From Bacteroidia bacterium (GTDB lineage Bacteria; Bacteroidota; Bacteroidia; NS11-12g; UBA9320), in contig JAGYJG010000001.1 of assembly GCA_018402155.1 (NCBI GenBank), positions 942,198 to 1,006,197 of the forward strand: a stretch of DNA of 64,000 nt, written 5' to 3'. This document shows, piece by piece, positions 1,836 through 26,953 of this stretch (position 1 is its first letter; every line of letters starts with the position of its first letter). Below the pieces are notes generated by a model, which ran no database searches, had not been told where the DNA came from, and saw only the letters and a list, made by a program, of their open reading frames with translations. A program made the translations under genes and the position numbers.

Positions 1836-1925
1836 GGTTTAATTACTTTTGGGGGAAATAGAAATGATACGTATAACCAGTTCACAATGTTTCATCGTAT
1901 ACCTTTTTAATGAGACACGTTTTCT

Positions 1926-5142: not shown

Positions 5143-5210
5143 GGACTAAGGTATACCATCGACATTGATTTTAATTTTTAGAATATTTAACACATTTAAA
5201 AACAAAAACA

Positions 5211-5915: not shown

Positions 5916-5928
5916 TAATAGTTTAGTT

Positions 5929-6537
5929 ATGAAAGTTTTTATACGCTATAGAGGTATTTGTTTAGCCTTGTTTGCTCTACTTTTTTGCTTCCCTTTGGTT
6001 GTTAAAGCTAAAGATTCTATTTATTTAAAACGTTCTGATCATTCTACGTTTTTAGAAATGGGAGGCAATGCAGTTATATATTCGTTTAATTATGAGTATA
6101 AACTAAAAGAGCTAAAAAACAGCTATCTTGTCCAAAGCATTGGTTTGCAAGTGCCTGACCTAGGCACACGTAGGACTTACCAGAATGGAGGTAAGCAAGT
6201 TAACCAAAGAAGATTGGATATGGCATTTTTCCCTCTAAGGTTAGGTTGGATAAGTCATAAAACTAGTAAAAATCATCTAGAAGCGGGAATCGGTGCAACG
6301 TATTATACAGCAAGTTCTCCAATATCCTCTATATCCTTTTCAGACAATATGGAGATTCAATTAGCCTGGGGCAATACGGTGTATTTCTCACCCAACTTGG
6401 GCTATAGATTCACAGGAGATAATGGGCTACTAGTACGGGCCACATTGAGTCCTATTGTTAGTAGATTTACAGACCCCAATTTTCAGTTTTACGGAGGAGT
6501 TTCTATCGGATATAATTTTAGAAAGAAGAAAATATGA
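5929..6537 (+). CDS. Small outer-membrane beta-barrel-like protein
   Basis: 202 residues. The signal peptide covers about residues 1-27 (GICLALFALLFCFPLVVKAK). The rest alternates hydrophobic and polar residues in short strands with aromatic girdle residues (FLEMGGNAVIYSFNYEY, HLEAGIGATYY, AWGNTVYFSPNLGYRF), and ends with FYGGVSIGYNFRKKKI. This pattern fits an 8-stranded barrel in the outer membrane. No specific family is recognised. It lies 13 bases after the S74 gene and overlaps the following lipoprotein gene by 4 bases, so it is part of the same operon. Confidence 0.65.
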   Translation: MKVFIRYRGICLALFALLFCFPLVVKAKDSIYLKRSDHSTFLEMGGNAVIYSFNYEYKLKELKNSYLVQSIGLQVPDLGTRRTYQNGGKQVNQRRLDMAFFPLRLGWISHKTSKNHLEAGIGATYYTASSPISSISFSDNMEIQLAWGNTVYFSPNLGYRFTGDNGLLVRATLSPIVSRFTDPNFQFYGGVSIGYNFRKKKI

Positions 6538-7427: not shown

Positions 7428-7431
7428 AATT

Positions 7432-10425: not shown

Positions 10426-10429
10426 GAAA

Positions 10430-10538
10430 GGCTAATCACCAACACTATGTATACGTAATGCCGCTTTTTATCGCAGCAGTAGAGCTTGTTCGCTGTGGCG
10501 AAGCGGCACTACGCATACACTCGCCGTTGGTGATAACC
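10430..10538 (+). repeat. attC-like boundary element E4
   Basis: The outer arms are GGCTAATCACCAAC (10430-10443) and GTTGGTGATAACC (10526-10538). The inner arms TGTATACGTAATGCCGC and GCGGCACTACGCATACA are the same class as E3. Only the tip differs (TTTATCGCAGCAGTAGAG against the E3 tip). The left arm complements the start of this unit at 5041. Confidence 0.75.
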
Positions 10539-10627
10539 AAAAGAAAGAAAAGTAGGCGAGTTAGTGATTGCGAAAAAAGCAGTATATTAGCCGACCGAAC
10601 CATTCGCTTGTAAACGAATGCAGCTCT
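10526..10627 (+). promoter_or_regulatory. Type I unit leader, copy 3 of 5
   Basis: The same 100-base block as at 1983. An in-frame TTG-type start at 10568 would translate this leader and is rejected, because the block is conserved upstream of unrelated genes and the signal peptide begins at 10697. Confidence 0.6.
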
Positions 10628-10696
10628 GAACCAAGGTTAAAAACCACCGACATTGATTTTATTTTTTTAAACATTAACACACAAAAAAACAAAACA

Positions 10697-12742: not shown

Positions 12743-12744
12743 TT

Positions 12745-13386
12745 ATGAAATATTTATCAATTATACTTCTTGTCATCCTTACAAGCCTATTGGCTTGTAA
12801 GGATGATTGTTTAACCTGTCCTGATAATGAAGCCGTTGTTAATGGTGAGTGTCAGTGTATTGGCATTCAATTTATAGGAAATTGTATGAGTAAGCGTGAG
12901 GCATTTCAAAAAAAGATACCGAGGGGAATTAGTGTTGAGATGCAACCATATTATTCTGAATCGATGGATTGTAATGCTCATTTTGACTTTAATAATCAAC
13001 CTTTATTTATATACTTAAGTGAAATAACCGAATATGATAATAGAGTGAGTGCTGTCATAGCTTTTCAAACCGAAGCTAGACCAACAAACACTTATTTCGA
13101 AAAAGTCTATTATTCAGGGTTAGAGTCCGAAATCGGTTCAAGTAACTTTGATTCATTGTCTTATGATTGGCCATCTGCCTATAATTATAATGGATTTGTA
13201 TACGTTGGAGAAGATGCCGTAGGAACTTCAAATCCAGAGCATTACACCACTATCATAGATGGACAAATGTGCTATTTGCGTCCTTACATCAAAATTTTGG
13301 ACAAGGATTATATACGAGTAACTTTCAGATATGTAACTGTGGATGAAGAAGTGAAAGCTGAATGTGTAAGACTCTTTCACAAATAA
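12745..13386 (+). CDS. Cys-rich lipoprotein, paralogue of 4342-4938
   Basis: 213 residues. The lipoprotein signal peptide ends in the lipobox LLAC. It is followed by CLTCPDNEAVVNGECQC, with the same cysteine spacing as the 4342 product, and a C-terminal half with CYLRPYIKILDKDY and CVRLFHK. Identity to the paralogue is highest at these two blocks, while the centre has diverged. It is the second gene of a two-gene unit and ends 4 bases before the boundary element. The function is unknown; pairing with the large secreted protein is the main clue. Confidence 0.7.
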   Translation: MKYLSIILLVILTSLLACKDDCLTCPDNEAVVNGECQCIGIQFIGNCMSKREAFQKKIPRGISVEMQPYYSESMDCNAHFDFNNQPLFIYLSEITEYDNRVSAVIAFQTEARPTNTYFEKVYYSGLESEIGSSNFDSLSYDWPSAYNYNGFVYVGEDAVGTSNPEHYTTIIDGQMCYLRPYIKILDKDYIRVTFRYVTVDEEVKAECVRLFHK

Positions 13387-13390
13387 GAAA

Positions 13391-13500
13391 GGCTATCACC
13401 AACACAAAATAAAACGCAATGCCGCTCCGCCTCGGCGGACGTGCTGTAAGCCTGCCCCGCAGGCTTGCAGCACGTGCGTTTATTCGAACCGTTGGCGGTC
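13391..13500 (+). repeat. attC-like boundary element E5
   Basis: The left outer arm GGCTATCACCAAC (13391-13403) matches the complement of this unit's own start (10526). The right side reads GTTGGCGGTCATCC (from 13491) because the next unit is type II, so pairing across the junction is limited to CCAAC/GTTGG plus scattered bases. The inner arms AATAAAACGCA and TGCGTTTATT pair with one bulged A. The tip has CCGCCTCGGCGG and CGTGCTGTAAGCCTGC/GCAGGCTTGCAGCACG hairpins. Confidence 0.75.
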
Positions 13501-13700
13501 ATCCGAAGAAAGATTTTTTCTGCATAAATTTGTAGAAAAAGTAAGGACAGAAAGAACTAAAACGGCCTAAAAATGAAAAGGCAAAACAAATTAGAAACGT
13601 TCTAATCTGTCAAAATGAAGAAGACCCAAAGGTGAAACGTGGCAACTAAGCACCAAGCCGACAGAAAGGAGTTAGCCAAAACAGTGACCGACTGATTTCG
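13491..13700 (+). promoter_or_regulatory. Type II unit leader, copy 1 of 2, with promoter core
   Basis: About 210 bases starting GTTGGCGGTCATCCG are strongly conserved with 22106-22316, including about 65 identical bases in the centre-right part. TAAATTTG at 13525-13532 is an exact match to the Bacteroidota -7 element TAnnTTTG, and the other copy has TAGATTTG at 22140-22147. The remaining 160 bases form a long untranslated leader with no conserved ORF, possibly a structured RNA. In both units it precedes a gene for a small Cys-containing secreted protein. Confidence 0.65.
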
Positions 13701-13731
13701 GTTAGTTTAACATTTAAAAAAACAAGAAAAA

Positions 13732-14139
13732 ATGAAAAAGACAATTTTATTTACACTAGCATTATTTTTAACGATTTTCTCCTACAGCAAAACGATTGTA
13801 ATCCATAAAAAAGGAGGTAAACCGTGCAAAGATAAACCAGCCGATGTTTGCTACAGAGAGGTAGATGTTGAAGATTCTGAAAGACGCTACGAACAATCTT
13901 GTAAAGGTCGTGGACTGAATTCGTGTCCTAAAGTTGGGATAGTTACAGTAGGTTCAATAGCATTCGATGTAGACAATTTCGTTGTTAATGTGGAAAACGC
14001 CATATTAGCTGGGTCGACCTCTGCAAATGGGGTAATCACAGATACTAATGGTGCAGTGGTAGCACACTATACGTGGACTGGAACAGTTAATATTGATGGC
14101 AACCTCGAATACGACATCATAATTGACGATGAGGTATAA
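13732..14139 (+). CDS. Small secreted Cys-containing protein
   Basis: 135 residues. Signal peptide MKKTILFTLALFLTIFSYSK. The mature start KTIVIHKKGGKPCKDKPADV is basic, followed by cysteines in VCYRE, EQSCKGRG and NSCPKVG. The second half is acidic and beta-like, without Cys. It resembles the small secreted proteins at 22343 and 22722 in size, signal peptide and position, immediately after a type II leader and before a large secreted protein. This arrangement recalls the small exported peptides paired with 6-bladed-propeller proteins in Bacteroidota, but no named family is recognised. Confidence 0.6.
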   Translation: MKKTILFTLALFLTIFSYSKTIVIHKKGGKPCKDKPADVCYREVDVEDSERRYEQSCKGRGLNSCPKVGIVTVGSIAFDVDNFVVNVENAILAGSTSANGVITDTNGAVVAHYTWTGTVNIDGNLEYDIIIDDEV

Positions 14140-15502
14140 ATTACTTATTTTCATAACCTTGCCCATAATTACTTTTGGGCAAGGTTTTATTTTGGATACT
14201 ACTATTCTTTTTAATAACATAGTTGTAGATGAAATCAACAAAATTGACAATATCTATGACCAAAATGATTTTTATATTCTTACAAATGATGGTGAAGTTG
14301 ATATAAAAAACATCGTCTCAAAAGAAAGTTGGAATTTAGGAAAATCAGATTACATTAGTTTTGGAAGCATTGCCGTTGTGAAAAAAACAATATTGTATGA
14401 ACGAAATAGTAAACTGGTCAAAAAGTCTAATAGAAAAAGCATAGCTTTTCTTCCTAAATCACTAGATCGAAAAAACGATATTTTAATAAAATATGCCTAT
14501 CAAGATGAAAAGTATCTGTATTTGTTTACATACTATAATAACAATGCAGAAACGGAACTTGGTCACGATGTGATTCATTGTTTCAAAATTTTAAGAAAAA
14601 ATCGCCACATAGTATTAAACAAGAAAATAGATATCGGTAAGGAGATAATACTAGCACCTTTTAATCAGCAAATAATAACCTTTACTGGTAATCGGTTTTT
14701 AATTGCTTCGCCTGTAACAACTGAAATTACTTCAATTGATAAAAATCTTGAGATTACCAAAAAGTTTCATTTAGATACAACTTTGAGCTTAGCAAACTCT
14801 GTCTCGTTTAATAAAGTTTTTCCAGATAAAAATGCTGGATTTTACTTATACAAACCACGGGACGTGATTTATCATTACAACAACTCAGAGTTGATTGATT
14901 TAAAAGTTATAAGTAAAATAATTGCTCTCAATGACTCCCTAGTTCTAGTTAATTATAGGTTAAAACATAGAGACATTTATTTAATAGAAATCATAAATGT
15001 AAACTCAAACAAGGCAATTTGGGAGAAACAAATAAACCATACGGGTGAAGAGTTGTCGCCATTATGTTGGACTAGAAGAGCATATTTCTCCTCCGATGAT
15101 GAATTGTGTCTTATAAGTCTGTACGAACCTGATGATAGTACCATTCTATATAAGGCAAAAATTTACTCCTTTAATCATAACGTAAAAATAAGTAAAGACA
15201 TCTTTTCGGAATATCAATTACTAAGTCCAGAGCAGGTCAAGGTTGATTTATCCCTTTATTCAGGAGTTGTATTGGCTGATGAATATTTCTGTAAAGGTTG
15301 TTATTCAAATTATGGTACTGGAGAGGGAGTATTGGTAATCAAAAAATATGATTTCCGAAGTACTGCGAGATTAAATGCAGATTATTCATACTTCATGCGA
15401 AACTGGGCAATTTCTGGTGAGTTGTGTTTCGTAGATTCTGAGACATATAATCACCTTAAGAATAAAATGAGTCCAAATGTCTTATATCCTTTTGAAGAAT
15501 AA
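14129..15502 (+). CDS. Secreted protein, possibly beta-propeller-like
   Basis: 457 residues from the ATG at 14129, which overlaps the previous gene by 11 bases. A TTG at 14123 is a less likely start. Signal peptide MRYKLLIFITLPIITFGQG. The mature protein is a series of strand-rich segments (DQNDFYILTNDGEVDI, YAYQDEKYLYLFTYY, ITFTGNRFLIASP, YSGVVLADEYFCKG), compatible with a propeller. It is the counterpart of the larger gene at 23095, which has the same position in the other type II unit. The N-terminal Cys motif of that paralogue is absent. The function is unknown, and a partnership with the small upstream protein is inferred from overlap and recurrence. Confidence 0.6.
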   Translation: MRYKLLIFITLPIITFGQGFILDTTILFNNIVVDEINKIDNIYDQNDFYILTNDGEVDIKNIVSKESWNLGKSDYISFGSIAVVKKTILYERNSKLVKKSNRKSIAFLPKSLDRKNDILIKYAYQDEKYLYLFTYYNNNAETELGHDVIHCFKILRKNRHIVLNKKIDIGKEIILAPFNQQIITFTGNRFLIASPVTTEITSIDKNLEITKKFHLDTTLSLANSVSFNKVFPDKNAGFYLYKPRDVIYHYNNSELIDLKVISKIIALNDSLVLVNYRLKHRDIYLIEIINVNSNKAIWEKQINHTGEELSPLCWTRRAYFSSDDELCLISLYEPDDSTILYKAKIYSFNHNVKISKDIFSEYQLLSPEQVKVDLSLYSGVVLADEYFCKGCYSNYGTGEGVLVIKKYDFRSTARLNADYSYFMRNWAISGELCFVDSETYNHLKNKMSPNVLYPFEE

Positions 15503-15510
15503 GAAAAGAC

Positions 15511-15621
15511 AAACCGCCAACACAAAATAAAACGCAATACCGCTCCGCCTCGGCGGACGTGCTGTAAGCCTGCCCCGCAGGCTTGCAGCACGTGCGTTTA
15601 TTCGAACCGTTGGTGATAACC
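15511..15621 (+). repeat. attC-like boundary element E6
   Basis: The left arm AAACCGCCAAC (15511-15521) is the complement of this unit's own type II start GTTGGCGGT (13491), not of the next unit's type I start at 15609. The inner stem and tip are almost identical to E5. This is a key comparison: the outer arm follows the unit while the inner stem is shared. Confidence 0.78.
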
Positions 15622-15710
15622 AAAAGAAAGAAAAGTAGGCGAGTTAGTGATTGCGAAAAAAGCAGTATATTAGCCGACCGAACCATTCGCTTGTAAACGA
15701 ATGCAGCTCT
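15609..15710 (+). promoter_or_regulatory. Type I unit leader, copy 4 of 5
   Basis: The same block as at 1983, followed by a tail with the GTTCCG/CGGAAC hairpin at 15777-15795. The tail and hairpin are nearly identical to those of the units at 1983 and 17729. Confidence 0.6.
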
Positions 15711-15816
15711 GAACCAAGGTTAAAACCAGCATTAAAAACTGCAAGAACTTAATCAATTCTCGCAGCAATTTTTAATGTTCCGCAGAAAACGGAACGGTTT
15801 AAACAAATTAGAAACA

Positions 15817-17112
15817 ATGAAAAAAATAATTTTAACAAAAATGGTAATGCTAGCGGGACTGGTTATTGCCTTTATGTCTTGTAACGACATTGAGCCAGCC
15901 AGTCCAAATGAAGCAGTAAAATGGAAAATTCCATACAGTCTCGTTGGAGAATACGCTTTGGCATACAGAACTAGTCAAAGTTCCGACATTAAAAACAAAA
16001 GTAGTGAGAATAGCATCTTCTCTATTTGTGAGATAGACTCATTCGTAGACAAAGATGATCTTACTGCAATGTACGTCATTAACTTTTGTAACGATAGCGG
16101 TTGGGTCATACTAAGTGCGGATTACAGAATGGAACCAATAATGGCTCACAATGATGAGGGTAGTTTTGGTCACGGAGATATTCCTGGCGGCCTAGCTATG
16201 TGGATATTGGCAAGTGTAGAGTCAATCGAGGATATAAGAGAGCATGATGTTAAGCACCCTTCAGCAGATATTGCTTGGACAGTATCCTTAAATGATTACG
16301 GTCTAGATGACGATATCCCATCACGTCCTGATATTGGGATAAACGGCGGACTTGGACCTGGTGAGCTAGACCCATGTCTATTAGGAATTGTCTCTTCAAC
16401 ATATACTAAAGGACCATTATTAAATACCACTTGGGGACAAGAGTGTACATATAATGATGATGTTCCCAATTGCACAACAGGTGATTGTGGTAAAATGCCT
16501 GTTGGTTGTGTTGCAACCGCATGTGGTCAGATAATGCAGTATTGGGGTCATCCACAAGCTACTTTTGACTTTACGGCTATGTCTTTGAATAATGGTAATA
16601 GTGAAGTTGCCAAGCTATTAGAAGATTTTGGTGATGAAGTTAACATGAACTACCAATGTGACGGTTCCGGGTCACAGAGCAACGATGCAAAAAAATGTCT
16701 TGATAACGTCTATAACTATCACGATCCAGAATTTGTTCCATACAATTATGCAACGCTTATGGGTGACTTACAGAAAGATTGGCCAGTGTATTTGGATGGA
16801 TGTAGAATTATAAATGTAAACGATAGAAACTGGTGGCAGTTTTGGATTCCTCGTGTTGAATATGATGGCTGTCACGCTTGGGTATGTGATGGATATAAAT
16901 ATTCATACCGTAAATGTCCAAATAAACCTACCAAGAAATGGGGACACCTACTTCATATGAATTGGGGATGGCATGAGGTAAACCCCAATACTCTTGTTCC
17001 TGATTCATGGATGCGTGATTTCAATGGTTGGTATCGTTATAATGACTGGACAATTCCAAACGGGAGAAATTATCAATTTGCTCAGGATATGATTTATAAC
17101 ATTGATAGATGA
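15817..17112 (+). CDS. C10 family (streptopain/SpeB-type) cysteine protease lipoprotein
   Basis: 431 residues from the ATG at 15817. The in-frame ATG at 15775 lies in the leader hairpin and is rejected. The signal peptide ends in the lipobox FMSC, so the protein is a lipoprotein. Residues 40-130 form the Spi-type propeptide (YVINFCNDSGWVILSADYRM, PIMAHNDEG). The catalytic domain has the nucleophile Cys near 231 in PVGCVATACGQIMQYW, the catalytic His near 352 in GCHAWVCDGY, and the conserved Trp in LHMNWGWHEV. C10 enzymes are papain-fold proteases made as zymogens. Extra cysteines (QECTYNDDVPNCTTGDCGK) are unusual. The 171-residue lipoprotein that overlaps the end of the gene is a candidate inhibitor, since C10 genes often sit beside propeptide-like or other inhibitors. 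Confidence 0.9.
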   Translation: MKKIILTKMVMLAGLVIAFMSCNDIEPASPNEAVKWKIPYSLVGEYALAYRTSQSSDIKNKSSENSIFSICEIDSFVDKDDLTAMYVINFCNDSGWVILSADYRMEPIMAHNDEGSFGHGDIPGGLAMWILASVESIEDIREHDVKHPSADIAWTVSLNDYGLDDDIPSRPDIGINGGLGPGELDPCLLGIVSSTYTKGPLLNTTWGQECTYNDDVPNCTTGDCGKMPVGCVATACGQIMQYWGHPQATFDFTAMSLNNGNSEVAKLLEDFGDEVNMNYQCDGSGSQSNDAKKCLDNVYNYHDPEFVPYNYATLMGDLQKDWPVYLDGCRIINVNDRNWWQFWIPRVEYDGCHAWVCDGYKYSYRKCPNKPTKKWGHLLHMNWGWHEVNPNTLVPDSWMRDFNGWYRYNDWTIPNGRNYQFAQDMIYNIDR

Positions 17113-17624
17113 TGAAGTATATACTAATTTTCACCCTTGCACTCTGTTTTGGATGCAATGAAGATGAACACGACAAGAAATGGGACTTAAGACCGAACAC
17201 TGCCCTTACAATTGGTTTTAAGGATACATTAGATTTTAATTCTAAGTATCCACTAAACAGAATGAGTAGCAGTCCAAGTAAATCTGAACCAAATCTTATA
17301 TACTACTTTAAAGATAGTGAAAAACACTACTTAGAGGCAGGCGTGATTAAAAACGGTGGGTTAAACATTCCTTTCCAGTACCCGTACTACAGTTTTAGTG
17401 TCTCTAACGATTTAAATACAATAAGTGCCATAGGAGGTTACAAATTATTTTATATTGACTGGCCAAATGGCCAAACAGATACTCTATACGCTAATTATCG
17501 ATCCGACTTAAAGGGTCCAAATGAATGTAATTGTTCAGAGCCTTTGGTTGAGCTTACTTTAAATGGTAAGCCTTTTATTGAAAAGACTGACTATAGTATA
17601 AACGGTGTCTACGTCTTTGAATAA
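17109..17624 (+). CDS. Lipoprotein next to C10 protease, possible inhibitor
   Basis: 171 residues. The signal peptide ends in the lipobox CFGC. The rest is a single beta-rich domain (NTALTIGFKDTLDF, HYLEAGVIKNGGLNIPF, YKLFYIDWPNGQTDTLYANY) with a CNCSEP turn and the closing segment ELTLNGKPFIEKTDYSINGVYVFE. No propeptide-like repeat of the protease is evident. It overlaps the C10 protease gene by 4 bases, so co-translation is likely. A role as inhibitor or immunity protein is inferred from known C10 loci in streptococci and Bacteroides, not from sequence similarity. Confidence 0.6.
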   Translation: MMKYILIFTLALCFGCNEDEHDKKWDLRPNTALTIGFKDTLDFNSKYPLNRMSSSPSKSEPNLIYYFKDSEKHYLEAGVIKNGGLNIPFQYPYYSFSVSNDLNTISAIGGYKLFYIDWPNGQTDTLYANYRSDLKGPNECNCSEPLVELTLNGKPFIEKTDYSINGVYVFE

Positions 17625-17628
17625 GAAA

Positions 17629-17741
17629 GGCTATCACCAACACAAAATAAAACGCAATGCCGCTCCGCCTCGGCGGACGTGCTGCAAGCCTGCCCCGCAG
17701 GCTTGCAGCACGTGCGTTTATTCGAACCGTTGGTGATAACC
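17629..17741 (+). repeat. attC-like boundary element E7
   Basis: The outer arms GGCTATCACCAAC (17629-17641) and GTTGGTGATAACC (17729-17741) pair with one mismatch over 13 bases. The inner arms AATAAAACGCA/TGCGTTTATT pair, and the tip hairpin CGTGCTGCAAGCCTGC/GCAGGCTTGCAGCACG is perfect. This is the most regular element in the array. Confidence 0.8.
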
Positions 17742-17830
17742 TAAAGAAAGAAAAGTAGGCGAGTTAGTGATTGCGAAAAAAGCAGTATATTAGTCGACCG
17801 AACCATTCGCTTGTAAACGAATGCAGCTCT
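17729..17830 (+). promoter_or_regulatory. Type I unit leader, copy 5 of 5 (of a broken unit)
   Basis: It differs from the copy at 15609 at only a few bases. The downstream 200 bases, including the hairpin at 17897-17915 and the start of the gene, are identical to 15711-15892 and onward. Confidence 0.6.
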
Positions 17831-17936
17831 GGACAAAGGTTAAAACCAGCATTAAAAACTGCAAGAACTTAATCAATTCTCGCAGCAATTTTTAATGTTC
17901 CGCAGAAAACGGAACGGTTTAAACAAATTAGAAACA

Positions 17937-18023
17937 ATGAAAAAAATAATTTTAACAAAAATGGTAATGCTAGCGGGACTGGTTATTGCCTTTATGTCTT
18001 GTAACGACATTGAGCTGTTGTAA
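17937..18023 (+). pseudogene. Truncated duplicate of the C10 protease gene start
   Basis: Only the signal peptide and first mature residues remain: 26 codons identical to the gene at 15817, up to the codon GAG of NDIE. The sequence then switches abruptly to CTGTTGTAAGC and stops. The break lies near 18015. Upstream, the leader is nearly identical to that of the intact unit. The 3' part of the unit, including its boundary element, is missing, and the next sequence belongs to a relic unit. This is a recent duplication followed by deletion, or an incomplete recombination. Confidence 0.85.
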
Positions 18024-18055
18024 GCTCCCCCAAAAATAGTACGGAATAAAAGTAG

Positions 18056-18169
18056 AAAATTAATAATTTTTACAATTGTCAACAAATACATGTCTGCCGA
18101 CAAGCAATGTGGGAAGCACACTTTGAAGATTTTCCTCCAGTGGCGGATAAACTTTTGGATTTAGTTTAA
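18056..18169 (+). pseudogene. Relic of a short ORF, copy 2 of 3
   Basis: Here the frame is open through the site where the other two copies have TGA. It reads CRQAMWEAHFEDFPPVADK and ends at TAA, but no start codon is present after an upstream TAG. Substitutions against copies 1 and 3 are conservative in this frame, with Glu/Asp, Ser/Phe and Leu/Val exchanges. The product family is not recognised. Confidence 0.45.
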
Positions 18170-18270
18170 GAAAAGCATATTTTTGAGAACACGATATGAG
18201 AATAAACGTACCCACTTCACCAATAATGCTTTTTAACTATATCAATGAACCAATTCAAAGTTGCGTAGAT

Positions 18271-18325
18271 AGTAAAAATAGACGCATGTTTTGTGGGGAG
18301 TTACGTCTATACTAATGTTGTGTTT
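18271..18325 (+). repeat. attC-like boundary element E8, short hairpin type
   Basis: ATAGACG (18278-18284) pairs with CGTCTAT (18304-18310), and TAGT/ACTA pair outside. The next unit starts with GTTGTGTTT at 18317-18325. The element is similar in layout to E2 and to the one at 22048. Confidence 0.5.
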
Positions 18326-18343
18326 CATTAAGAATAACTAAAT

Positions 18344-18673
18344 ATGAGTGACATAAAAGAAATAACTGAAGCTCTGATTAAATTCAGAAATGAACGGGAC
18401 TGGGAACAATTCCATAATCCTAAAGACCTTGCTATCGCTCTGAATATTGAGGCAGGTGAACTATTAGAAAATTTCTTATGGAAATCACATGAAGACTCAG
18501 ATAGGGAAAAGGTCAAGGAAGAATTAGCAGATGTACTTGCATACTCTCTTCTCTTAGCTGAAAAATATGGATTTGACGTCAAAGATATTCTGCTTGACAA
18601 AATCAAAAAGAATGGAGAAAAATATCCAATAGAGAAAGCAAAAGGAACTGCGAAAAAATATAACGAGCTTTAA
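18344..18673 (+). CDS. MazG-like nucleotide pyrophosphohydrolase
   Basis: 109 residues, a full-length single-domain member of the MazG-like/RS21-C6 (dCTPase) group. It has the metal-binding helices EAGELLENFLW (residues 36-46) and VKEELADVLAYSLLLAEKYG (58-77), and a C-terminal ENxxKYP-like segment (KKNGEKYPIEKAKG). These enzymes hydrolyse nucleoside triphosphates to monophosphates and pyrophosphate. It shares a base with the next gene (stop and start overlap at 18673), so it is coupled to the GIY-YIG/helicase protein. It has no signal peptide, in contrast to nearly all other genes of the array. Confidence 0.88.
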   Translation: MSDIKEITEALIKFRNERDWEQFHNPKDLAIALNIEAGELLENFLWKSHEDSDREKVKEELADVLAYSLLLAEKYGFDVKDILLDKIKKNGEKYPIEKAKGTAKKYNEL

Positions 18674-20865
18674 TGATTCAAACTCAAGTAAAAATAAATC
18701 ATTACGACTTTGAGAATAGTCTATTTGAAGATTTCAGTACAAATCATTTTGCTAAAGACCTTTGGCCACTAGTTTATATTTTAAGTGATGGTAATACCAA
18801 AACGGCTTATGTTGGTGAAACTACTGATGCCTATTCTAGAATGGGAACTCACTTAAAACATAAAACGAAAAGTAAACTTACATCAGTCCATTTAATCACA
18901 AGTGAAAAATTCAACAAATCTGCTACCCTTGATATAGAATCCAATCTGATAAAATATATGTCAGGGGATAATAAATTCACTCTACTAAATGGAAACCTTG
19001 GACTTGCTAATCACAATTATTACCAAAAAAAAGAAGTATACTGGGATATTTTCAATACGATTTGGAATCAGCTGAGAGCAGAAGGAATATCTAAACACTC
19101 TATAGAGCATATTGACAATTCTGACCTCTTCAAATATTCGCCATATAAAAGTTTAACTAAGGAACAAAGTCAAGGTTTGTTTCAAATATTACAGAGTCTC
19201 GCAACTGGAAAATATGATAATACTATTGTTGAAGGAGGCGCTGGTACTGGTAAGACAATTTTAGCCATATTCTTATTTAAAATGCTTTTAAGTCAATTAG
19301 AGGATTTTAGTTTTAAAGAGTTCGGTGCAGAAGAAAACACTTATATAGATTTAATTAATCAAATAAAAAAAGTACTTCCAAATCCTAAAATGGCATTAGT
19401 TGTACCAATGTCTTCATTCAGAACCACATTAAAAAAGGTTTTTAAAAATATAAAAGGTCTTAGTGCTAGTATGGTTATTGGTCCTGCCCAGGTGAGTAAG
19501 GAAAAATATGACTTACTAGTAGTTGATGAGTCGCACAGATTGAGAAGAAGGGTGAATTTGGGTGCTTATTTCGGAGCTTTTGATAAAGCTTGTCTAGCGC
19601 TTAATCTAGATAAGCATAATGCAAGTGAATTAGACTGGGTTACCAAGCAATCAAAGCATACTGTTTTATTTTATGATGAAGGGCAGTCAATTAAACCATC
19701 TGACGCAAAAAAAGAACAATTTGACCTAATCAAAAGAGATCAAAATACCTCTATTCTCAAATTAAAGTCCCAGTTCAGAGTAAAGGGTGGAAATGCGTAT
19801 GTTGAGTATATAGACGCTTTATTGCACAATAATCTAGAAGAAGGTTCCTCTAAATTCAATTCTAAAGAGTACGAGTTTACTATGTTTGATTCACTAGAAA
19901 CAATGATTGAACAAATAAAATTACGTGATAGAGAAAGTGGGCTTTCAAGACTTATTGCTGGTTACTCTTGGGAATGGAAATCAAACAAAGACAAGGATGC
20001 TTTTGATATTAAAATAGATGATGTTCAGCTAAAATGGAACGGCACTTCAAATGATTGGATTAATTCAGATGGAGCAATAAATGAAGTTGGATGTATACAT
20101 ACTACTCAAGGCTATGACCTAAATTATTCTGGGATTATTTTTGGAAACGAAATATCCTTTAATCCTGAGACCAAAGAAATTATAGTAAAAGAAGAAAACT
20201 ATTTTGATAAAAACGGGAAACAGTCCATTAAAGACCCCGAGGAATTAAAAGCCTTTATCCTAAATATTTACAAAACCATTATGCTTAGAGGGATAAAAGG
20301 CACATATATTTATGTGTGTGACCCACTATTAAAAGCTCATTTTGAATCTTTTGTGCATAAATACAAAACTAATCAAGTTGAAATCAAAACATTAGTCAGA
20401 ACCAAGAATATCAGACCTTTTGAAAATTCAATTCCACTTTACAGCCTAAAAGTAGCAGCTGGCGAATTTGGCGAATTACAACAATTAGAAGATGTGGAAT
20501 GGCTTAATATTCCTGAAAAAATTAAACCGAGTAAAGACTTGTTTGCTTGTCAGGTAATTGGTGAGTCTATGAATAAGGTAATTCCAAATGGTGCATTATG
20601 TTTATTTCGAAAATATTCAGGAGGTTCGAGAAATGGTCAAATAGTTTTGGTTGAAAACACCAATATGCATGATTCTGATTTCGGTTCATGCTATACAGTA
20701 AAAGAATATGAGAGTAAAAAATATGAAGATGAAGATGGTTGGAAACACCAATCCATTATTTTAAAACCTTTATCGACTGACAGTTCCTACGAAAATATGG
20801 TGTTAGAAGATCAAGATTTCACCAAGTTTAAAGTAATAGGAACCTTTGAATGCGTATTAGAATAA
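18673..20865 (+). CDS. GIY-YIG / DUF2075 helicase / S24-like fusion protein
   Basis: 730 residues with three domains. Residues 30-110 form a GIY-YIG nuclease-like domain (PLVYILSDG, TAYVGETTDAYSRMGTHLKH). Residues 165-600 are a DUF2075/Schlafen-type helicase: Walker A EGGAGTGKT near 188, Walker B LLVVDESHR near 283, SQFRVKGG near 370 and HTTQGYDLNYSGIIFG near 476. Residues 610-730 resemble LexA/S24 peptidase: CQVIGESMNKVIPNGALCLF with Ser near 630, then NGQIVLVE and a late conserved Lys. The protein probably acts on DNA or RNA and may sense or process a signal through the S24 part. With the coupled MazG-like enzyme, it looks like a two-gene anti-phage module. That role is inferred from domains and context. 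Confidence 0.85.
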   Translation: MIQTQVKINHYDFENSLFEDFSTNHFAKDLWPLVYILSDGNTKTAYVGETTDAYSRMGTHLKHKTKSKLTSVHLITSEKFNKSATLDIESNLIKYMSGDNKFTLLNGNLGLANHNYYQKKEVYWDIFNTIWNQLRAEGISKHSIEHIDNSDLFKYSPYKSLTKEQSQGLFQILQSLATGKYDNTIVEGGAGTGKTILAIFLFKMLLSQLEDFSFKEFGAEENTYIDLINQIKKVLPNPKMALVVPMSSFRTTLKKVFKNIKGLSASMVIGPAQVSKEKYDLLVVDESHRLRRRVNLGAYFGAFDKACLALNLDKHNASELDWVTKQSKHTVLFYDEGQSIKPSDAKKEQFDLIKRDQNTSILKLKSQFRVKGGNAYVEYIDALLHNNLEEGSSKFNSKEYEFTMFDSLETMIEQIKLRDRESGLSRLIAGYSWEWKSNKDKDAFDIKIDDVQLKWNGTSNDWINSDGAINEVGCIHTTQGYDLNYSGIIFGNEISFNPETKEIIVKEENYFDKNGKQSIKDPEELKAFILNIYKTIMLRGIKGTYIYVCDPLLKAHFESFVHKYKTNQVEIKTLVRTKNIRPFENSIPLYSLKVAAGEFGELQQLEDVEWLNIPEKIKPSKDLFACQVIGESMNKVIPNGALCLFRKYSGGSRNGQIVLVENTNMHDSDFGSCYTVKEYESKKYEDEDGWKHQSIILKPLSTDSSYENMVLEDQDFTKFKVIGTFECVLE

Positions 20866-20871
20866 AAACAA

Positions 20872-20938
20872 AAACACAACAATGTGAATAATGCATAGCA
20901 CCCTTTGGGAAGCTACGACACTATACACGTAACGTAAG
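20872..20938 (+). repeat. attC-like boundary element E9
   Basis: The left arm AAACACAAC (20872-20880) is the exact complement of this unit's own start GTTGTGTTT (18317-18325). The tip is a hairpin AGCACCC/GGGAAGCT, with GTG/CAC pairs further out. The right end is CGTAACGTAAGC, because the next unit is type III and starts GTAAGC at 20934. The element is about 65 bases, close to the smallest classical attC sites. Confidence 0.72.
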
Positions 20939-21991: not shown

Positions 21992-22045
21992 AAATGCTAT
22001 TTTGAGACTTATAATGAGAAGTAGATGCCAAAGGTGCGGTAATAT

Positions 22046-22110
22046 ATAGTAGCGTACATAACGGAAATATGCACTATAGGGGGATTGTATTTGGCATATA
22101 CTAATGTTGG
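22046..22110 (+). repeat. attC-like boundary element E11, short hairpin type
   Basis: TAGTA and TATACTA pair outside, TATGC and GCATA pair inside, and the loop contains GGGGG. GTTGG follows at 22106. The layout is the same as in E2 and E8, each closing a unit that holds a relic ORF. Confidence 0.5.
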
Positions 22111-22316
22111 CGGTCATCCGAAGATAGATTTTTTCTACGTAGATTTGTAGAAATAGTAAGGACAGAAAGAACCAAACGGCCAAAAAATAGAAAGGCAAAT
22201 GAAATTTAGAAACGTTCTAATCTGTCAAAATGAAGAAGACCCAAAGGTGAAACGTGGCAACTAAGCACCAAGCCAGCAGAAAGGAGTTAGCCAAACAGTA
22301 TCCGACTGATTTCGGA
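22106..22316 (+). promoter_or_regulatory. Type II unit leader, copy 2 of 2, with promoter core
   Basis: It is conserved with 13491-13700, with a promoter core TAGATTTG at 22140-22147. The central part (AAACGTTCTAATCTGTC and onward to CAAGCC) is unchanged between copies, whereas the promoter-proximal and 3' ends carry scattered changes and short indels. Confidence 0.65.
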
Positions 22317-22342
22317 ATTTGTATTTAATAAAGAAAAATGAA

Positions 22343-22717
22343 ATGAAAAAATTATTGTATTTATTTTTAGCAGTATCACTAAGTGTTTCAGTGTATGCAA
22401 AAAAACCGAAGAAATCAGAAACACCAGCCCCAGCCGCTGAGGAAGTTACTGTCTATGACGGTAAAATTTACAAAAAAGAGGGACAACCAAATAATTTTTA
22501 TTGTAAGCATCGAAATAGAGTCTGTTGGATTGAACGCGACTGTTCTGATGACGTGAACGCGACTTGTCCCGTGCCAGGTGCGAAGATTATCAGTTTGTAC
22601 ACTGATGATGGAATCGAAACAATGGCGGTTCAAGATGTTATCTCTCTGGGTGAAGTAGAAGACCCTGAGATTGGTGAAATAGTTAATGCATATGAAATTA
22701 TATTTTTAGGAAATTAA
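22343..22717 (+). CDS. Small secreted Cys-containing protein
   Basis: 124 residues from the ATG at 22343. An in-frame start at 22319 lacks a signal-peptide-like beginning. Signal peptide MKKLLYLFLAVSLSVSVYAK is followed by a Lys/Pro/Ala stretch. The core FYCKHRNRVCWIERDC matches the FYCKDRSKLCYAEMTEGDC core of the next gene, so the two are related. A further Cys occurs in ATCPVPG. The acidic C-terminal half (DDGIETMAVQDVISLGEVED) has no Cys. It lies 4 bases before the related gene, and both precede a large secreted protein, as in the unit at 13491. The function is unknown. Confidence 0.6.
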   Translation: MKKLLYLFLAVSLSVSVYAKKPKKSETPAPAAEEVTVYDGKIYKKEGQPNNFYCKHRNRVCWIERDCSDDVNATCPVPGAKIISLYTDDGIETMAVQDVISLGEVEDPEIGEIVNAYEIIFLGN

Positions 22718-22721
22718 GAAA

Positions 22722-23090
22722 ATGAAAAGATTAAGTTTATTTATTACAGCAGTATTATTTTTTGTAGGTTTCAGTATTGCTTCAAATGGAAAAGGGGATT
22801 CAAAGAAAGAACCACTATTAAAGAAAAATGCCGAAATTACCGAATACAGAGGTAAACAAAAGTGGATTGATAAAAACAATAGGACTTTTTATTGTAAAGA
22901 CCGGAGTAAGCTGTGTTATGCCGAAATGACAGAGGGTGATTGCAACACAGCCGCAACCATTACCTATGGAGATGAGGGAACAGTTCATCACCAAGGCACA
23001 AAAGTTATTCAAATTGGAATGACTCCAGAATTTGAAATTATTGATGAAGAACCTTCATCTGTTTTCCAGATTGTTCCTGCTTGTCAATAA
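22722..23090 (+). CDS. Small secreted Cys-containing protein, related to the previous gene
   Basis: 122 residues. Signal peptide MKRLSLFITAVLFFVGFSIAS, then a Lys-rich stretch. The core TFYCKDRSKLCYAEMTEGDC shares spacing with the preceding gene. The C-terminal part (GTKVIQIGMTPEFEIIDEEP) is similar in character to the other small proteins. A terminal Cys (VPACQ) is unusual. Tandem duplication within one unit is likely. It is followed 4 bases later by the probable TTG start of the large gene. Confidence 0.6.
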   Translation: MKRLSLFITAVLFFVGFSIASNGKGDSKKEPLLKKNAEITEYRGKQKWIDKNNRTFYCKDRSKLCYAEMTEGDCNTAATITYGDEGTVHHQGTKVIQIGMTPEFEIIDEEPSSVFQIVPACQ

Positions 23091-23094
23091 AGTA

Positions 23095-24546
23095 TTGAAA
23101 TCATACATCACAATTTGTTGTTTCCTTTTTCTCGGGTTACAAGCAAAAGCGTCGAAGATAGGCGTTCTTATGAATCCTGATAATTGTATTCTGTGTAACA
23201 ACGGATTGAGATATTTGGAAATGATAAATTGTGATTCTTTTGAGGTTTTTTTTCCGGAAAGGTTTTCTGAGAAAGAGGCTCTAACATTCATCAAGAATTC
23301 ATCTGCTTTCAAGGGAAAGGAAATCTCTCTTATAATCTCAGATAGTAAAACGAGTAAAATAAGAAAAGATTGTAAACTCTCTGAACAGACACAGTCCGCT
23401 GTATTTGTTTACGGAGCCAACAATGAGGTAGTTAAATATTATGATTTCAAAGAATTGTCTGTCACAGCAACAAAAGCTATTAATGCGTTAGTTCGAAATA
23501 GTATAAAGGTGTATGAAAGACGTGTAGAAGACGATAAATTTTCAAGTCTTGGGTTTGAAGATGTATGTACGGTAGCAGGAGACATCATCTGTTTATCCTA
23601 TCCTCAGAATAAAATTATGGTTGTTGATGAGGACTATAACCTCAAACACATTTTACTCCCTGAGTATTTACCGATACAGCAGATTTATTCGGTCTATAAT
23701 AATAATGACACTACCGGTTTTTACTATTACAACAAAAAAATTCGTTCGTTACACAAGCGAGGAAAGACACCGATATTTCAATTCAATTCTCTCAAACCAT
23801 ATACGGATTCAACCTACCTTGTTATGGGCAGTCTCTATGTTGCTTCGAAAGGAATGTATCAAGGGCAACCTTCTACGCGAATTTCACAAGAACTTATGCT
23901 CATTGAGTTTATGGAGAACAAGATTATTTCTATTCATTCTTTAAAAACAGATAAACGAAGCCAAATTAAAAGAGGTTTTTACTTGGACTACACTAACTAT
24001 ACAAAGAGTTTTGATAATGACGGAATTGATGTTGCTATTGAACGAGACAATAATCGAGGGAGAAAATTATTTCTAGCAAAATTAAATAGTGACAAAGGGC
24101 AAACCTCATTAGATTATGTATATAAAAATCAATTACCGATATTAATTAAAAAAGATACAACACCTTATTTGATGTATACTTTTTACAAGGTGAATAAGCA
24201 CATTTTCTTTAAATATGATTTTGAGAATGTCTATAACTACACCGGAAAGCCAAAACTTATTACAACAATCATTTCTGGACTTGATGAAGCTACGAAAGCA
24301 ATATTAAAGTCTGATTACACGCTTGAATGCGTGAGCAAACAGCCATTTGGATATGAACTGCTCTTTGTTGATGATACTTTCAAGACCTGTAATGTACTAA
24401 GGCTCAATAATGACCTTTCGCACATTAGTATGACAAGCAGTGATATTTTATGTAAATCAAAGAGTAATGTTGTGTATGACAATGTAAAAGCCTCATATTT
24501 TTTTCGTTCAAATGACAATGTTATAATGGAGTTAAAAATAGAATAA
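23095..24546 (+). CDS. Secreted protein with N-terminal thioredoxin-like Cys motif, possibly propeller-like
   Basis: 483 residues if the TTG at 23095 is the start. This gives a clean signal peptide (MKSYITICCFLFLGLQAKAS) and a 4-base gap after the previous gene. The alternative ATG at 23032 overlaps that gene by 59 bases and puts the hydrophobic core 30 residues in. After the signal come KIGVLMNPDNCILCNNGLRY, with a CxxC motif, and a segment to about residue 110 that resembles a degenerate thioredoxin fold. The remaining 370 residues are repeated strand pairs (GDIICLSYPQNKIMVVDEDY, DTTGFYYYNKKI, YTFYKVNKHIFFKYDF), compatible with a beta-propeller. It is the counterpart of the gene at 14129, and both belong to type II units with small secreted proteins upstream. 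Confidence 0.6.
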   Translation: MKSYITICCFLFLGLQAKASKIGVLMNPDNCILCNNGLRYLEMINCDSFEVFFPERFSEKEALTFIKNSSAFKGKEISLIISDSKTSKIRKDCKLSEQTQSAVFVYGANNEVVKYYDFKELSVTATKAINALVRNSIKVYERRVEDDKFSSLGFEDVCTVAGDIICLSYPQNKIMVVDEDYNLKHILLPEYLPIQQIYSVYNNNDTTGFYYYNKKIRSLHKRGKTPIFQFNSLKPYTDSTYLVMGSLYVASKGMYQGQPSTRISQELMLIEFMENKIISIHSLKTDKRSQIKRGFYLDYTNYTKSFDNDGIDVAIERDNNRGRKLFLAKLNSDKGQTSLDYVYKNQLPILIKKDTTPYLMYTFYKVNKHIFFKYDFENVYNYTGKPKLITTIISGLDEATKAILKSDYTLECVSKQPFGYELLFVDDTFKTCNVLRLNNDLSHISMTSSDILCKSKSNVVYDNVKASYFFRSNDNVIMELKIE

Positions 24547-24555
24547 ATAAAGGAC

Positions 24556-24638
24556 GAACCGCCAACACAAAATAAAACGCAATGCCGCCAGAAGCCTGCC
24601 CCGCAGGCTATGCGGCACGTGCGTTTATTCGAACCGTT
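24556..24638 (+). repeat. attC-like boundary element E12, last of the array
   Basis: The left arm GAACCGCCAAC (24556-24566) complements this unit's own start GTTGGCGGTC (22106). The inner arms AATAAAACGCA/TGCGTTTATT are as in E5-E7, with the tip ATGCCGC/GCGGCA and AAGCCTGC/GCAGGCT. After CGAACCGTT the sequence turns to ACCATATAC instead of GG, so the match to the other elements ends exactly at GTT. This marks the right edge of the array. Confidence 0.75.
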
Positions 24639-24760
24639 ACCATATACTATAGAATTGAAGGGTATTTTACCAGAGATTAAACTATACCCAATACTCAAAA
24701 ACATCAATACTAAAAGTAAATGCAACTAGAATATAGCTATCAACACGCGCCCGCCATAAA

Positions 24761-25603
24761 TTAAGGATTACAATAGTTGCAGTACATCGGATCTTCTACA
24801 GTTTTATCGTGCGGATATACTTCTACTTTACAATAGTCACACATTTTACATACATAGTTATACTGCAAAATAGAATTGGTAGGCAACCCACATGATTTAC
24901 ATAAAAGACCTTTTTGAGCAGATGAAATAGCAAAACCAGGGAACTGACAAGCAGGGCAAATGGATTTTATTTTCTGTACAAGGTTTTGCGCTGTTTGTTG
25001 TATAACACTCATACGCGTTGGGTTATACATAGCCCGCATATCTGTTTCTACATAAGCGCCCACAGTATTATCGGCTATTTCTGCAAATGCCATTTTCAAA
25101 AACTCCGTATCTGTAATACCCTTTTTTATAGCCGAATAGTCGTTCACAGCTTTGCGCAAAATTAAACCGTGTAGAGGGAAACCACTAGCCAATGCAAAGT
25201 CCATTAAATCTTTTGTATTAGTGACTTGTTTGCCTGCAAAATTAGTTTGTGTACTTATCTCACGACTGGTTATTTCTAGCTTGTTTTTGGTGTCTATGAA
25301 TACCATAAACTCCTCATTTTCTGGAATAAAATGGAGTGTAGGGTGCGATCCAAAGGAGCCTTCACTGGCAATACCCAAATCACATTTTGCTTGTTTCATA
25401 GCGCCCAAGCATTTTGCTCTAGCTGTAGCCAAAGGATCTAATTTTCTCTCTATCTCGCCAGAGAAAGTTCCAAATAAATCGGTGTCGAAAGTGCTATCCG
25501 TAAAACAGCAAACACCCAGTTCTTTTTCAAAAACTGGAGCAATAACACTTTCCTTTTGGTGCTTTGTAGCAATTATAATTTTTCTATTTTGAAAAATCTC
25601 CAT
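24761..25603 (-). CDS. DUF6671 family protein with C-terminal zinc ribbons
   Basis: 280 residues. The N-terminal 190 residues (RKIIIATKHQKESVIAPVFE, DTDLFGTFSGEIERKLDPLA, GIASEGSFGSHP) match the DUF6671 family. The last 80 residues carry paired CxxC motifs (CPACQFPGF, CKSCG, CKMCDYC, CNYCNP), forming zinc ribbons. The function is unknown. It is the first core gene right of the cassette array and is transcribed toward it. The dihydroorotase gene ends 12 bases upstream of its start, so they may be co-transcribed. Confidence 0.8.
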   Translation of the reverse strand: MEIFQNRKIIIATKHQKESVIAPVFEKELGVCCFTDSTFDTDLFGTFSGEIERKLDPLATARAKCLGAMKQAKCDLGIASEGSFGSHPTLHFIPENEEFMVFIDTKNKLEITSREISTQTNFAGKQVTNTKDLMDFALASGFPLHGLILRKAVNDYSAIKKGITDTEFLKMAFAEIADNTVGAYVETDMRAMYNPTRMSVIQQTAQNLVQKIKSICPACQFPGFAISSAQKGLLCKSCGLPTNSILQYNYVCKMCDYCKVEVYPHDKTVEDPMYCNYCNP

Positions 25604-25615: not shown

Positions 25616-26953
25616 CTATTTTTCTAAGGGCATTCCGTATGCGGTTTCATCGAATATACCATTATTATAAACCAAGTTACCATTTACAAACGTATGTGTA
25701 ATTTTAGTTTGGAAGGTAGTTCCCTCCAGCGGTGACCAACCACATTTAGACAAAATATTGTCTTTGTTTACCGTCCAACTTTCGTTTAAATCCACCATAG
25801 TGAGATCAGCAAAATAACCCTCGCGTATAAAACCACGATTGGCGATACCGTAAAGGGTAGCCGGATTGTGGCACATTTTTTCTACGATTTTTTCGAGTGA
25901 TATTTTCCCCTGCTTATAAAACTCTAGCATAATATTAACAGAGTGTTGTACAATGGGCGCACCAGACATAGATTTAAAGTATGGTTGTTGTTTTTCGGCT
26001 AAAGTATGCGGAGCGTGATCTGTAGTTATGAGGTCTATTCTATCGTCTAACAGGGCTTTTAATAGTCCATTTTTATCCTTTTCAGTTTTGATAGCAGGAT
26101 TCCACTTGATTAAGGTGCCCAGTTTTTTATAATCTTTATCCGAAAACCATAAATGATGGACAGATACTTCAGTTGTAATATTTTTTTCTTTCAGCGGTAT
26201 ATCATTGCGAAATAAGTGTGTTTCTGCCTCGGTAGTTAGATGCAATATGTGCAGACGTGTCTTATGTTTATTTGCGATAGTTATAGCTCTTTTGGTGGCT
26301 TCATAGCAGGCCTTTTCACTACGTATGGTGGGGTGAAGCTCAATTGGAACATCTTCGCCAAATTGTTTTTTGTACAACTGCTCATTTTCTTCTACTATTT
26401 GTTCTTTTTCGGAATGAATAGCGACGATAGATTTACAATTTGCGAAAAGTTTTTCCATTGTTTCTGGATTATCTGCTAGCAAATTTCCTTTTTTTGTGAA
26501 GTATAGACCATCATCAGATACAGCCAAAAGATGCGAGGTATCTAGGCTTAGTACTTCATCTAAATTATCTCCATTAACACCTAAAAAAAAACCAAAATTG
26601 GCCAAAGACTTCTTTGAAGCTAACTCATATTTTTCATTCAAAATATCTAGGCTCAGTACATTGGGAAAAGTATTTGGCATGTCTATAAAAGAAGTAGTGC
26701 CTCCTGCTATAGCAGCTTTACTCTCCGTATACAAATCGCCTTTATGTGTGAGCCCAGGATCCCTAAAATGTACTTGACCGTCTATAATACCGGGTAGCAA
26801 ATATTTTCCAGTACCATTAACCACAGTTGTATTTTCATCTGGTATTAATTTTCCTATTGCTTCTATACGGCCGTTATTTATAGAAAGATCGGCCACATTT
26901 ATTTGACCATCGTTTACAATAGATACATTGGTAATTAGTGTTTTTTGGCTCAT
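25616..26953 (-). CDS. pyrC: Dihydroorotase
   Basis: 445 residues, the usual length for the long (class I) form. It belongs to the cyclic amidohydrolase family and catalyses ring closure of carbamoyl-aspartate to dihydroorotate in pyrimidine synthesis. Visible motifs are IIDGQVHFRDPGLTHKGDLY near residue 57, HILHLTTEAE near 240, and LITTDHAPHTLAEKQ near 305. The usual HxH metal motif reads QxH here, which from memory is also the form in related Bacteroidota proteins. The enzyme could therefore have an altered metal site, or another chain could carry activity. It is the second gene of this pathway in the window (pyrD at 38495 is separate). Confidence 0.88.
   Translation of the reverse strand: MSQKTLITNVSIVNDGQINVADLSINNGRIEAIGKLIPDENTTVVNGTGKYLLPGIIDGQVHFRDPGLTHKGDLYTESKAAIAGGTTSFIDMPNTFPNVLSLDILNEKYELASKKSLANFGFFLGVNGDNLDEVLSLDTSHLLAVSDDGLYFTKKGNLLADNPETMEKLFANCKSIVAIHSEKEQIVEENEQLYKKQFGEDVPIELHPTIRSEKACYEATKRAITIANKHKTRLHILHLTTEAETHLFRNDIPLKEKNITTEVSVHHLWFSDKDYKKLGTLIKWNPAIKTEKDKNGLLKALLDDRIDLITTDHAPHTLAEKQQPYFKSMSGAPIVQHSVNIMLEFYKQGKISLEKIVEKMCHNPATLYGIANRGFIREGYFADLTMVDLNESWTVNKDNILSKCGWSPLEGTTFQTKITHTFVNGNLVYNNGIFDETAYGMPLEK

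Follow-up and report, generated by a model that had tools for sequence, protein, structure and literature searches.

Putative right end of a patch-less, integron-like cassette array in a Bacteroidia bacterium

Where does an array of repeat-bordered gene units end, and does its last repeat stop at a recombination site? The question is raised by a stretch of 64,000 nucleotides from a Bacteroidia genome (the window; contig 1, positions 942198-1006197), for which a preliminary description had proposed a clean right edge at a GTT trinucleotide. The contig carries three arrays, near 387-405, 933-967 and 1391-1435 kb, the second of which enters the window. We conclude, with a probability of roughly 0.8, that the GTT at the end of the last unit (cassette E12) is the right end of a patch-less, integron-like cassette array. 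This is a reading of sequence, and no recombination has been observed.

The edge of the last repeat and the flank behind it

E12 closes with an attC-like hairpin, an imperfect palindrome by arm alignment and predicted folds, whose 3' end reads ...GCACGTGCGTTTATTCGAACCG(24636)TT(24638)ACCATATACTATAG. Its right arm is common to seven sites across the three arrays, with identity running through CACGTGCGTTTATTCGA-R-M-C-G-T. The sequences after the shared arm are GTCATGC, GTTGGCGG, GTTGGTGA (three times), GTTACCAT (E12) and GTTACCTG. The claim that the repeat homology of E12 ends at GTT holds up, as E12 matches the six other sites through CGARMCG-T and then diverges. GTT is present at six of the seven compared right arms and GTC at one, and an eighth, slightly variant arm at 937.6 kb of contig 1 reads CGTAAGC by eye. 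All arms thus share the first T after G, and the second T occurs in six of seven (six of eight), so that the edge is G|T(T). That GTT is not invariant at edges follows from CG|TAAGC at the boundary at 20934 and from CG|TCATGC at the array 1 terminus. The exact cut, G|TT or GT|T, is not readable from the alignments.

The segment between the hairpin and the first flanking gene contains no gene of note, as had been stated: the last E12 ORF stops at 24546 and the convergent DUF6671 gene stops at 24761. In the mechanical ORF list the minus strand also has an ORF of 136 aa with a TTG start (24315-24725); it lies antisense to the E12 gene, and we infer that it is spurious. No Rfam family reaches its gathering score within the window, and comparison of 24639-24760 with the arrays and the window gave no match except one 15-nt hit. 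The three ORFs of E12 (22319-22717, 22722-23090 and 23032-24546) match no Pfam family at E 0.01.

The genes beyond the edge had been called core genes, which is only partly borne out. DUF6671 was found in none of 18 congeners searched, and pyrC is present in 16 of the 18 at only 43-53% identity. DUF6671 lies with pyrC within 1.5 kb at 6 of 19 loci in other Bacteroidia, so the flank is nevertheless an ordinary chromosomal block and not array. Flank DNA has matches in 12 of 19 genomes (our own counted), only in pyrC, attC-like sites and one short stretch elsewhere, and the DUF6671 loci of the class match it only within the gene or via 18-20-nt hits. The E12 locus was not found in the 18 congeners examined, and no empty site was seen there. 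Next to array 1, trxB is conserved together with some 90 nt before it, short of the array edge.

Two observations concern the flank itself. Close behind the junction, CATATACTATAG (24642-24653) agrees at 11 of 12 positions with the end of attI remnant A (1972-1983); an equally good 12-mer match was obtained post hoc in 10 of 24,654 AT-rich 22-nt windows. It could be a trace of a second attI or a chance match. In a different Bacteroidia genome (G558, locus L260), an attC-like palindrome in the opposite direction is seen by eye beside the 3' side of DUF6671, which is perhaps a repeated landing place.

Cassette ends, attI sites and sister arrays

The left arm of the E12 hairpin fits the start of E12 itself, GTTGGCGGTCATCC, at 9 of 10 positions, versus 5 of 10 for the following flank. 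As it lies, the hairpin has a predicted fold of -22.4 (top) and -21.1 (bottom) kcal/mol. Closed on its own start, it reaches -31.5 and -31.8 kcal/mol, a gain of 9 to 11. We read the pairing of the left arm with the first bases of the same cassette as a consequence of the unit having been circular, as an integron cassette is. This own-end complementarity supplies the logic that a plain comparison of repeats is without. E12 itself has no strand preference (the two closed folds above), its arm carries one extra base ahead of the A/G position, and its core, GTTGGCG, does not fit the RRRY of the canonical RYYYAAC/GTTRRRY.

The cassettes of the window as a group (Table 1) behave alike. Seven were tested, and the four that are informative all pair with their own start; in the remaining three, neighbours share a start type. 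At 22 consecutive boundaries taken from the three arrays, 20 arms match the start of their own cassette at 9-10 of 10 positions and two do not pair with it. Once four pairs with like starts are set aside, the own start is the better partner at 16 of 18 boundaries, and the next start at the other two (9 versus 7, and 6 versus 5, the latter barely a match). Many starts in arrays 1 and 3 were found via complementarity and are not independent, which makes the four of four in the window the cleaner figure. The attC criterion applied here, an imperfect palindrome whose outer arms pair with the start of the same cassette, is met.

Table 1 Features of the array and its right flank (window coordinates)
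Feature	Position	Strand	Remarks
attI remnant A	1820..1986	+	92% to array 1 attI; ends at GTT 1983-1985
Cassette also in array 1 (388778-391835, contig 1)	1983..5040	+	left edge begins, right edge breaks at GTT
Cassette, start GTTGGTGATAACC	5041..10525	+	
Cassette, start GTTGGTGATAACC	10526..13490	+	own-end pair 10/10
Cassette, start GTTGGCGGTCATCC	13491..15608	+	own-end pair 9/10
Cassette, start GTTGGTGATAACC	15609..17728	+	own-end pair 10/10; next cassette has same start type
Truncated cassette fused to 48-nt insertion-sequence end (18023-18070)	17729..18070	+	
attI remnant B	18155..18321	+	74% to attI of congener G010; ends at GTT 18317-18319
Cassette with MazG-like and Schlafen-type helicase genes, start GTTGTGTTTC	18317..20934	+	own-end pair 9/10; right edge CG|TAAGC
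attI remnant C, in front of E12	22050..22109	+	83% to array 1 attI
Cassette E12, start GTTGGCGGTCATCC	22106..24636	+	
E12 ORFs	22319..24546	+	
attC-like hairpin of E12, imperfect palindrome	24552..24638	+	arm alignment, folds
Left (R'') arm of E12, GGACGAACCGCCAAC	24552..24566	+	complementary to E12 start at 22106
Junction GTT	24636..24638	+	last bases common with other attC-like sites; array right edge
Right flank, convergent intergenic, no gene	24639..24760	.	
DUF6671 gene, first of flank	24761..25603	-	
Dihydroorotase (pyrC) gene of flank	25616..26953	-	

At each of the three attI remnants in the window a cassette follows at GTT. The main ORFs of the array are all on the plus strand, and the minus-strand ORFs listed overlap plus-strand ORFs or leaders. 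No recombinase gene was found in window positions 1-26000, nor did tblastn detect a convincing remnant there. A block of about 109 nt (family D5) is shared upstream of the attI remnants, at 1728-1836, 18062-18170 and 21884-21992. These blocks were considered as decayed recombinase ends and rejected, as tblastn gives no support.

Arrays 1 and 3 provide comparisons within one genome. Their recombinase genes and attI sites are 99.0% identical across 1237 nt up to the last T of GTT, where the match stops; different cassettes follow past GTT, as is required of an attI site. One cassette is shared between the window and array 1 (96% by BLAST, 3194 columns). Its left match begins at the G of GTT, where the neighbours differ, and its right identity breaks directly after GTT, with the next 13-14 nt different. 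The leaders of the two following cassettes are related and match again, so the BLAST alignment runs past the right edge. The preliminary description had looked to related genomes with an empty or shorter array for a test of the edge, and the attI copies and the shared cassette supply part of that comparison. The further proposal that the homology stops at the crossover point is supported, in that the same base is reached in the attC-like right arms, the two attI copies and the edges of the shared cassette.

We propose that the cassettes would be circular units, each with one folded recombination site (attC), and that a tyrosine recombinase would join this site, cut after G and before TT, to attI. 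Each cassette would then start with TT and close on its own hairpin's G, and the final hairpin of the array would lead into the sequence that had come after attI. The recombinase would most likely be of the kind that heads the two sister arrays, IntI-related but without the IntI-specific patch, and the bottom strand would be the folded substrate, for which fold energies are the only basis. While the cassette boundaries, the own-end pairing, the attI sites, the shared cassette and the association with patch-less recombinases are established by comparing sequences, the activity of the enzyme, the circular form, the bottom strand as substrate and the flank as an old attI half are inferred.

E12 is the sole cassette behind remnant C and thus the only one of a third attI-headed sub-array, so the simplest reading of the flank beginning TTACCATATAC.. 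is that it was once the right half of that attI site. It is possible, if less probable, that the array is site-specific and its edge secondary, with later cassettes lost or a rearrangement having brought in DUF6671-pyrC, in which case the flank would not be the old attI half. The fragmentary state of the arrays (the truncated cassette, the insertion-sequence end at 18023 and the three attI remnants) would suit such a history, as would the absence of DUF6671 from the congeners searched and the dissimilarity, by eye, of the right flanks of different arrays to one another. An ordinary deletion would not favour an edge exactly at a cassette end, however, and the flank 12-mer resembling the attI end speaks against a secondary edge as well, within the post hoc frequency given above. 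A secondary edge is compatible with the recombination model in everything except the flank.

Long 5' leaders of two types (about 110-300 nt) are common to cassettes with different genes, namely those at 1983, 5041, 10526, 15609 and 17729, and those at 13491 and 22106; a leader sometimes reaches into the signal peptide. The leaders may carry promoters or a structured RNA and may also offer a route for homologous swaps. In array 1, the end arm of the cassette at 391836-398342 of contig 1 (L037:7837 onward) pairs with the next start and not with its own. Except for the first 13-14 nt, the leader of this cassette belongs to the GTTGGTGAT type, and it looks as if the start alone were exchanged.

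A history without any site-specific system, with terminators or REP-like repeats for hairpins and homologous recombination as the source of the duplicated units, could use the shared leaders as a foothold and would accommodate the one boundary that pairs with the next start. We regard it as hardly tenable, since the breaks fall at one base in unrelated comparisons, the ends pair with their own starts, and the signature described below lies behind recombinases in other species.

Several cassettes and their surroundings carry features of separate interest. The genes at 18344-20865 encode a MazG-like protein and a GIY-YIG / Schlafen-type helicase / S24 protein, which are defence-like (weak PADLOC matches). 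A gene in the first cassette of array 3 matches the candidate defence family PDC-S02 (L040:6414-7472). A break at the insertion-sequence end separates the truncated cassette from the part that carries attI remnant B. The reverse complement of this end occurs at 939233 of contig 1, where a transposase-like ORF adjoins it.

Recombinases and the position-11 signature

Arrays 1 and 3 are each headed by a 372-residue tyrosine recombinase directly upstream, in the same direction as the cassettes. Its best NCBIfam score is on the XerA-type model NF040815 (198.6 bits, cut-off 220), and it scores 187.2 bits on the integron integrase model TIGR02249, below the cut-off of 265. An alignment with 18 canonical IntI of the phylum shows that it is without the additional IntI domain of about 42 residues (the patch), and its C-terminal tail (KSPLDLL) is IntI-like. 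The N-terminal part of the patch-less recombinases, some 95 residues (L040:4839-5150), has no Pfam match.

A 35-row tree puts the patch-less group (74/89) and IntI (88/88) on separate sides of a branch, with both apart from the genome's own Xer-like recombinases L005 and L008 (98/94; long branches). A third recombinase of the genome, L007, has a very long branch and falls beside IntI. A quick tree of 99 rows, with a midpoint root and weak deep forks, nests IntI inside the patch-less family. A structure model of the Seonamhaeicola relative (L149; pLDDT 81.6, pTM 0.55) has XerA and IntI4 as its nearest solved folds; the model places domains poorly and so supports only an XerA/IntI fold.

The site geometry suggests which strand is folded. 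Pairing between start and end extends across about 12-14 nt. At position 11 an A/C recurs, with A in the cassette start and C in the arm (G in the reverse complement of the arm). On the top strand this is a mismatch of A opposite C and on the bottom strand a wobble of T opposite G, which suggests that the bottom strand would be the folded substrate. Among 33 strict cassettes from 17 loci, selected from 60 chained ones in part by the A/G pair, the bottom strand is predicted to be more stable in 31 (mean -4.3 kcal/mol). Within the arms alone it is better in 29 of the 33, by 2.3 kcal/mol. In the unfiltered chained set, which includes chance chains, the figure is 47 of 60. The 27 cassettes dropped had a boundary not after C, a start that was non-GTT or GTTT, fewer than 9 exact bases or a gap above 125, or were duplicates. 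As GTT and the preceding C are built into this filter, the strict cassettes do not test the junction base. The base after GTT is A in 20, G in 12 and C in 1 (T excluded by the filter; later bases free), and the gaps from arm to next start have two sizes, 52-67 and 111-121 nt.

We counted the signature in single-mismatch pairs, in which a GTT start and a downstream arm agree at all but one of 12 positions. Among 160 such pairs in 86 stretches that total 692 kb (with relatives limited to the best 80 of 587), 63 have A-to-G at position 11, a type not found in the ten commonest among 75 upstream pairs or 85 shuffle pairs. Exact 10-nt pairs with A-to-G number 69 of 173 downstream versus 6 of 92 upstream in the same best 80 of 587, and 11 of the 92 upstream pairs are of the mirror type G-to-A, perhaps arrays in the other direction. 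In a control with five other prefixes (686 pairs), the type seen most often (45) is A-to-G at position 10; we take it, tentatively, to reflect the same pairs displaced by one base (prefix TTG). The regularity first showed in the output of a hairpin-including score, which itself did not separate real from control anchors. It was spotted by inspection and then counted with controls picked afterwards, and the count of 63 of 160 was not blind. A few of the 63 hits are plainly chance or duplicates (for example GTTTTATTTT in array 2).

Chains of two cassettes with a hairpin between them gave a similar picture. At 8 nt, 60 were found versus 8 in shuffles, 42 of the 60 with A-to-G (best 80 of 587 relatives); at 7 nt the test is weaker (168 versus 101). 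A loose chaining search returned mostly noise, and exact 10-12-nt inverted pairs with GTT were near the shuffle level. The 80 loci scanned, 44 of them Bacteroidota by title, include two (L210 and L214) that are canonical IntI by their insert and were yet counted among the patch-less stretches and as cassette negatives.

Cassettes were recognised at 24 of 62 scored loci of the best 80 of 587 relatives, our own arrays 1 and 3 among the 24. The positives, mainly Bacteroidota, include Winogradskyella, Seonamhaeicola, Rufibacter, Algoriphagus, Algibacter, Aquiflexum, Zunongwangia and Alkalitalea. Rufibacter carries a run of seven small cassettes whose gaps measure 52-54 nt. One positive locus is from a Spirochaetota metagenome bin, which may, we infer, be a binning error. 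The other 38 scored loci, two of them canonical IntI, have no cassettes by this test despite at least 2.5 kb downstream. Many family members may therefore do otherwise or use sites that the test misses. Among the 24 cassette-positive loci from the best 80 of 587, the span DR..HxxRH is 60-62 residues in 22 and 66 in one; it was mis-parsed in the remaining locus (L162), where the patch is absent on reading. The same span is 103 residues in 10 of 11 IntI.

The first signature-bearing cassette start lies 23-320 nt behind the recombinase stop in 24 stretches, our own array 3 included. By eye, a palindromic site ending near GTT and followed by unrelated genes is found behind the recombinases of several relatives; none was seen behind L127, L129 and L131-L133. 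Two paralogues in G026 have a site identical up to GAGTTAG and then part.

These data bear on whether the window holds a conventional integron array without integrase (CALIN), built by a canonical, patch-bearing IntI encoded elsewhere, with the patch-less recombinases as bystanders. The window array itself has no recombinase, and canonical IntI is common in the sampled phylum (over the cut-off in 70 of 247 genomes). We nonetheless think this origin improbable: no protein of the genome, which is 99.6% complete, exceeds the curated IntI cut-off; the sister arrays begin directly behind patch-less recombinases with a shared attI; and the surroundings of 20 canonical IntI genes show the signature rarely or not at all, with A-to-G in at most 4 of 71 pairs in either direction. 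The 20 IntI loci gave few recognisable cassettes (in plus orientation, 8 links versus 3 in shuffles at 8 nt and 42 versus 15 at 7 nt), so the absence there rests on few cassettes.

Relation to integrons and other known systems

A canonical integron consists of an IntI with an additional domain, attI and attC, according to PMC9668308 and PMC2426708; the former, whose reference list names Messier and Roy 2001, states that the patch is needed, and the latter that integron integrases were selected in surveys by it. PMC8138268 describes an integron-like recombinase subgroup in which the insertion is 'not fully conserved' yet 'essential for integron function', and the present recombinases may belong to that subgroup. 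IntegronFinder 2.0 names one complete integron in Bacteroidetes proper, in Salinibacter (PMC9024848). No literature on cassette arrays with patch-less recombinases was found among the matches listed, which cover titles and the start of abstracts and leave preprints and most subscription journals outside.

On balance, and with some reserve, we favour the existence of a second, patch-less integron class across Bacteroidota, missed since surveys require the IntI patch. It would have a longer outer stem (about 12-14 bp), and the A/C at position 11 would mark the recombined strand. IntI may be a patch-bearing offshoot of the patch-less family, to which the nesting in the 99-row tree points with weak deep support and which the separation in the 35-row tree does not share. 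If patch-less recombinases run arrays in Winogradskyella, Seonamhaeicola, Rufibacter, Algoriphagus, Zunongwangia and others, part of the phylum's mobile gene pool has so far gone uncounted. It would become testable whether attC recombination requires the patch or whether the patch was added later, and the recurrent wobble would be a one-base handle on strand choice.

Compared with Xer, XerA and XerD, the present recombinase has the same two-domain catalytic core. It differs in adjoining attI and cassettes and in its N-terminal part without Pfam match, and the genome's own Xer-like L005 and L008 fall outside its group in the 35-row tree with its long branches. The likeness to a CALIN, an attC cluster without integrase (a name used in PMC9024848), lies in the window array, where two or more attC-like sites without a recombinase nearby meet that criterion. 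In contrast to a CALIN, recombinases head sister arrays in the same genome, and many sites bear the position-11 signature. The atypical Treponema integrons have an integrase and cassettes that point the same way, as here (PMC3607928), and are described as integrons with an integrase.

With IntI integrons the arrays share an attI beside a tyrosine recombinase, co-oriented cassettes with one 3' imperfect palindrome each, G|TT junctions, and a bottom strand that is predicted to be more stable as a hairpin. They differ in the end pairing of about 12-14 nt with A/C at position 11, in a core in which GTT is not clearly continued as RRRY, in a recombinase that points the same way as the cassettes, and in the patch, a criterion of membership, which the recombinase does not meet. 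As the patch is absent even though attachment sites and own-end pairing are in place, the arrays are not members of the IntI family as defined; they look and, by inference, work like integrons, with activity inferred.
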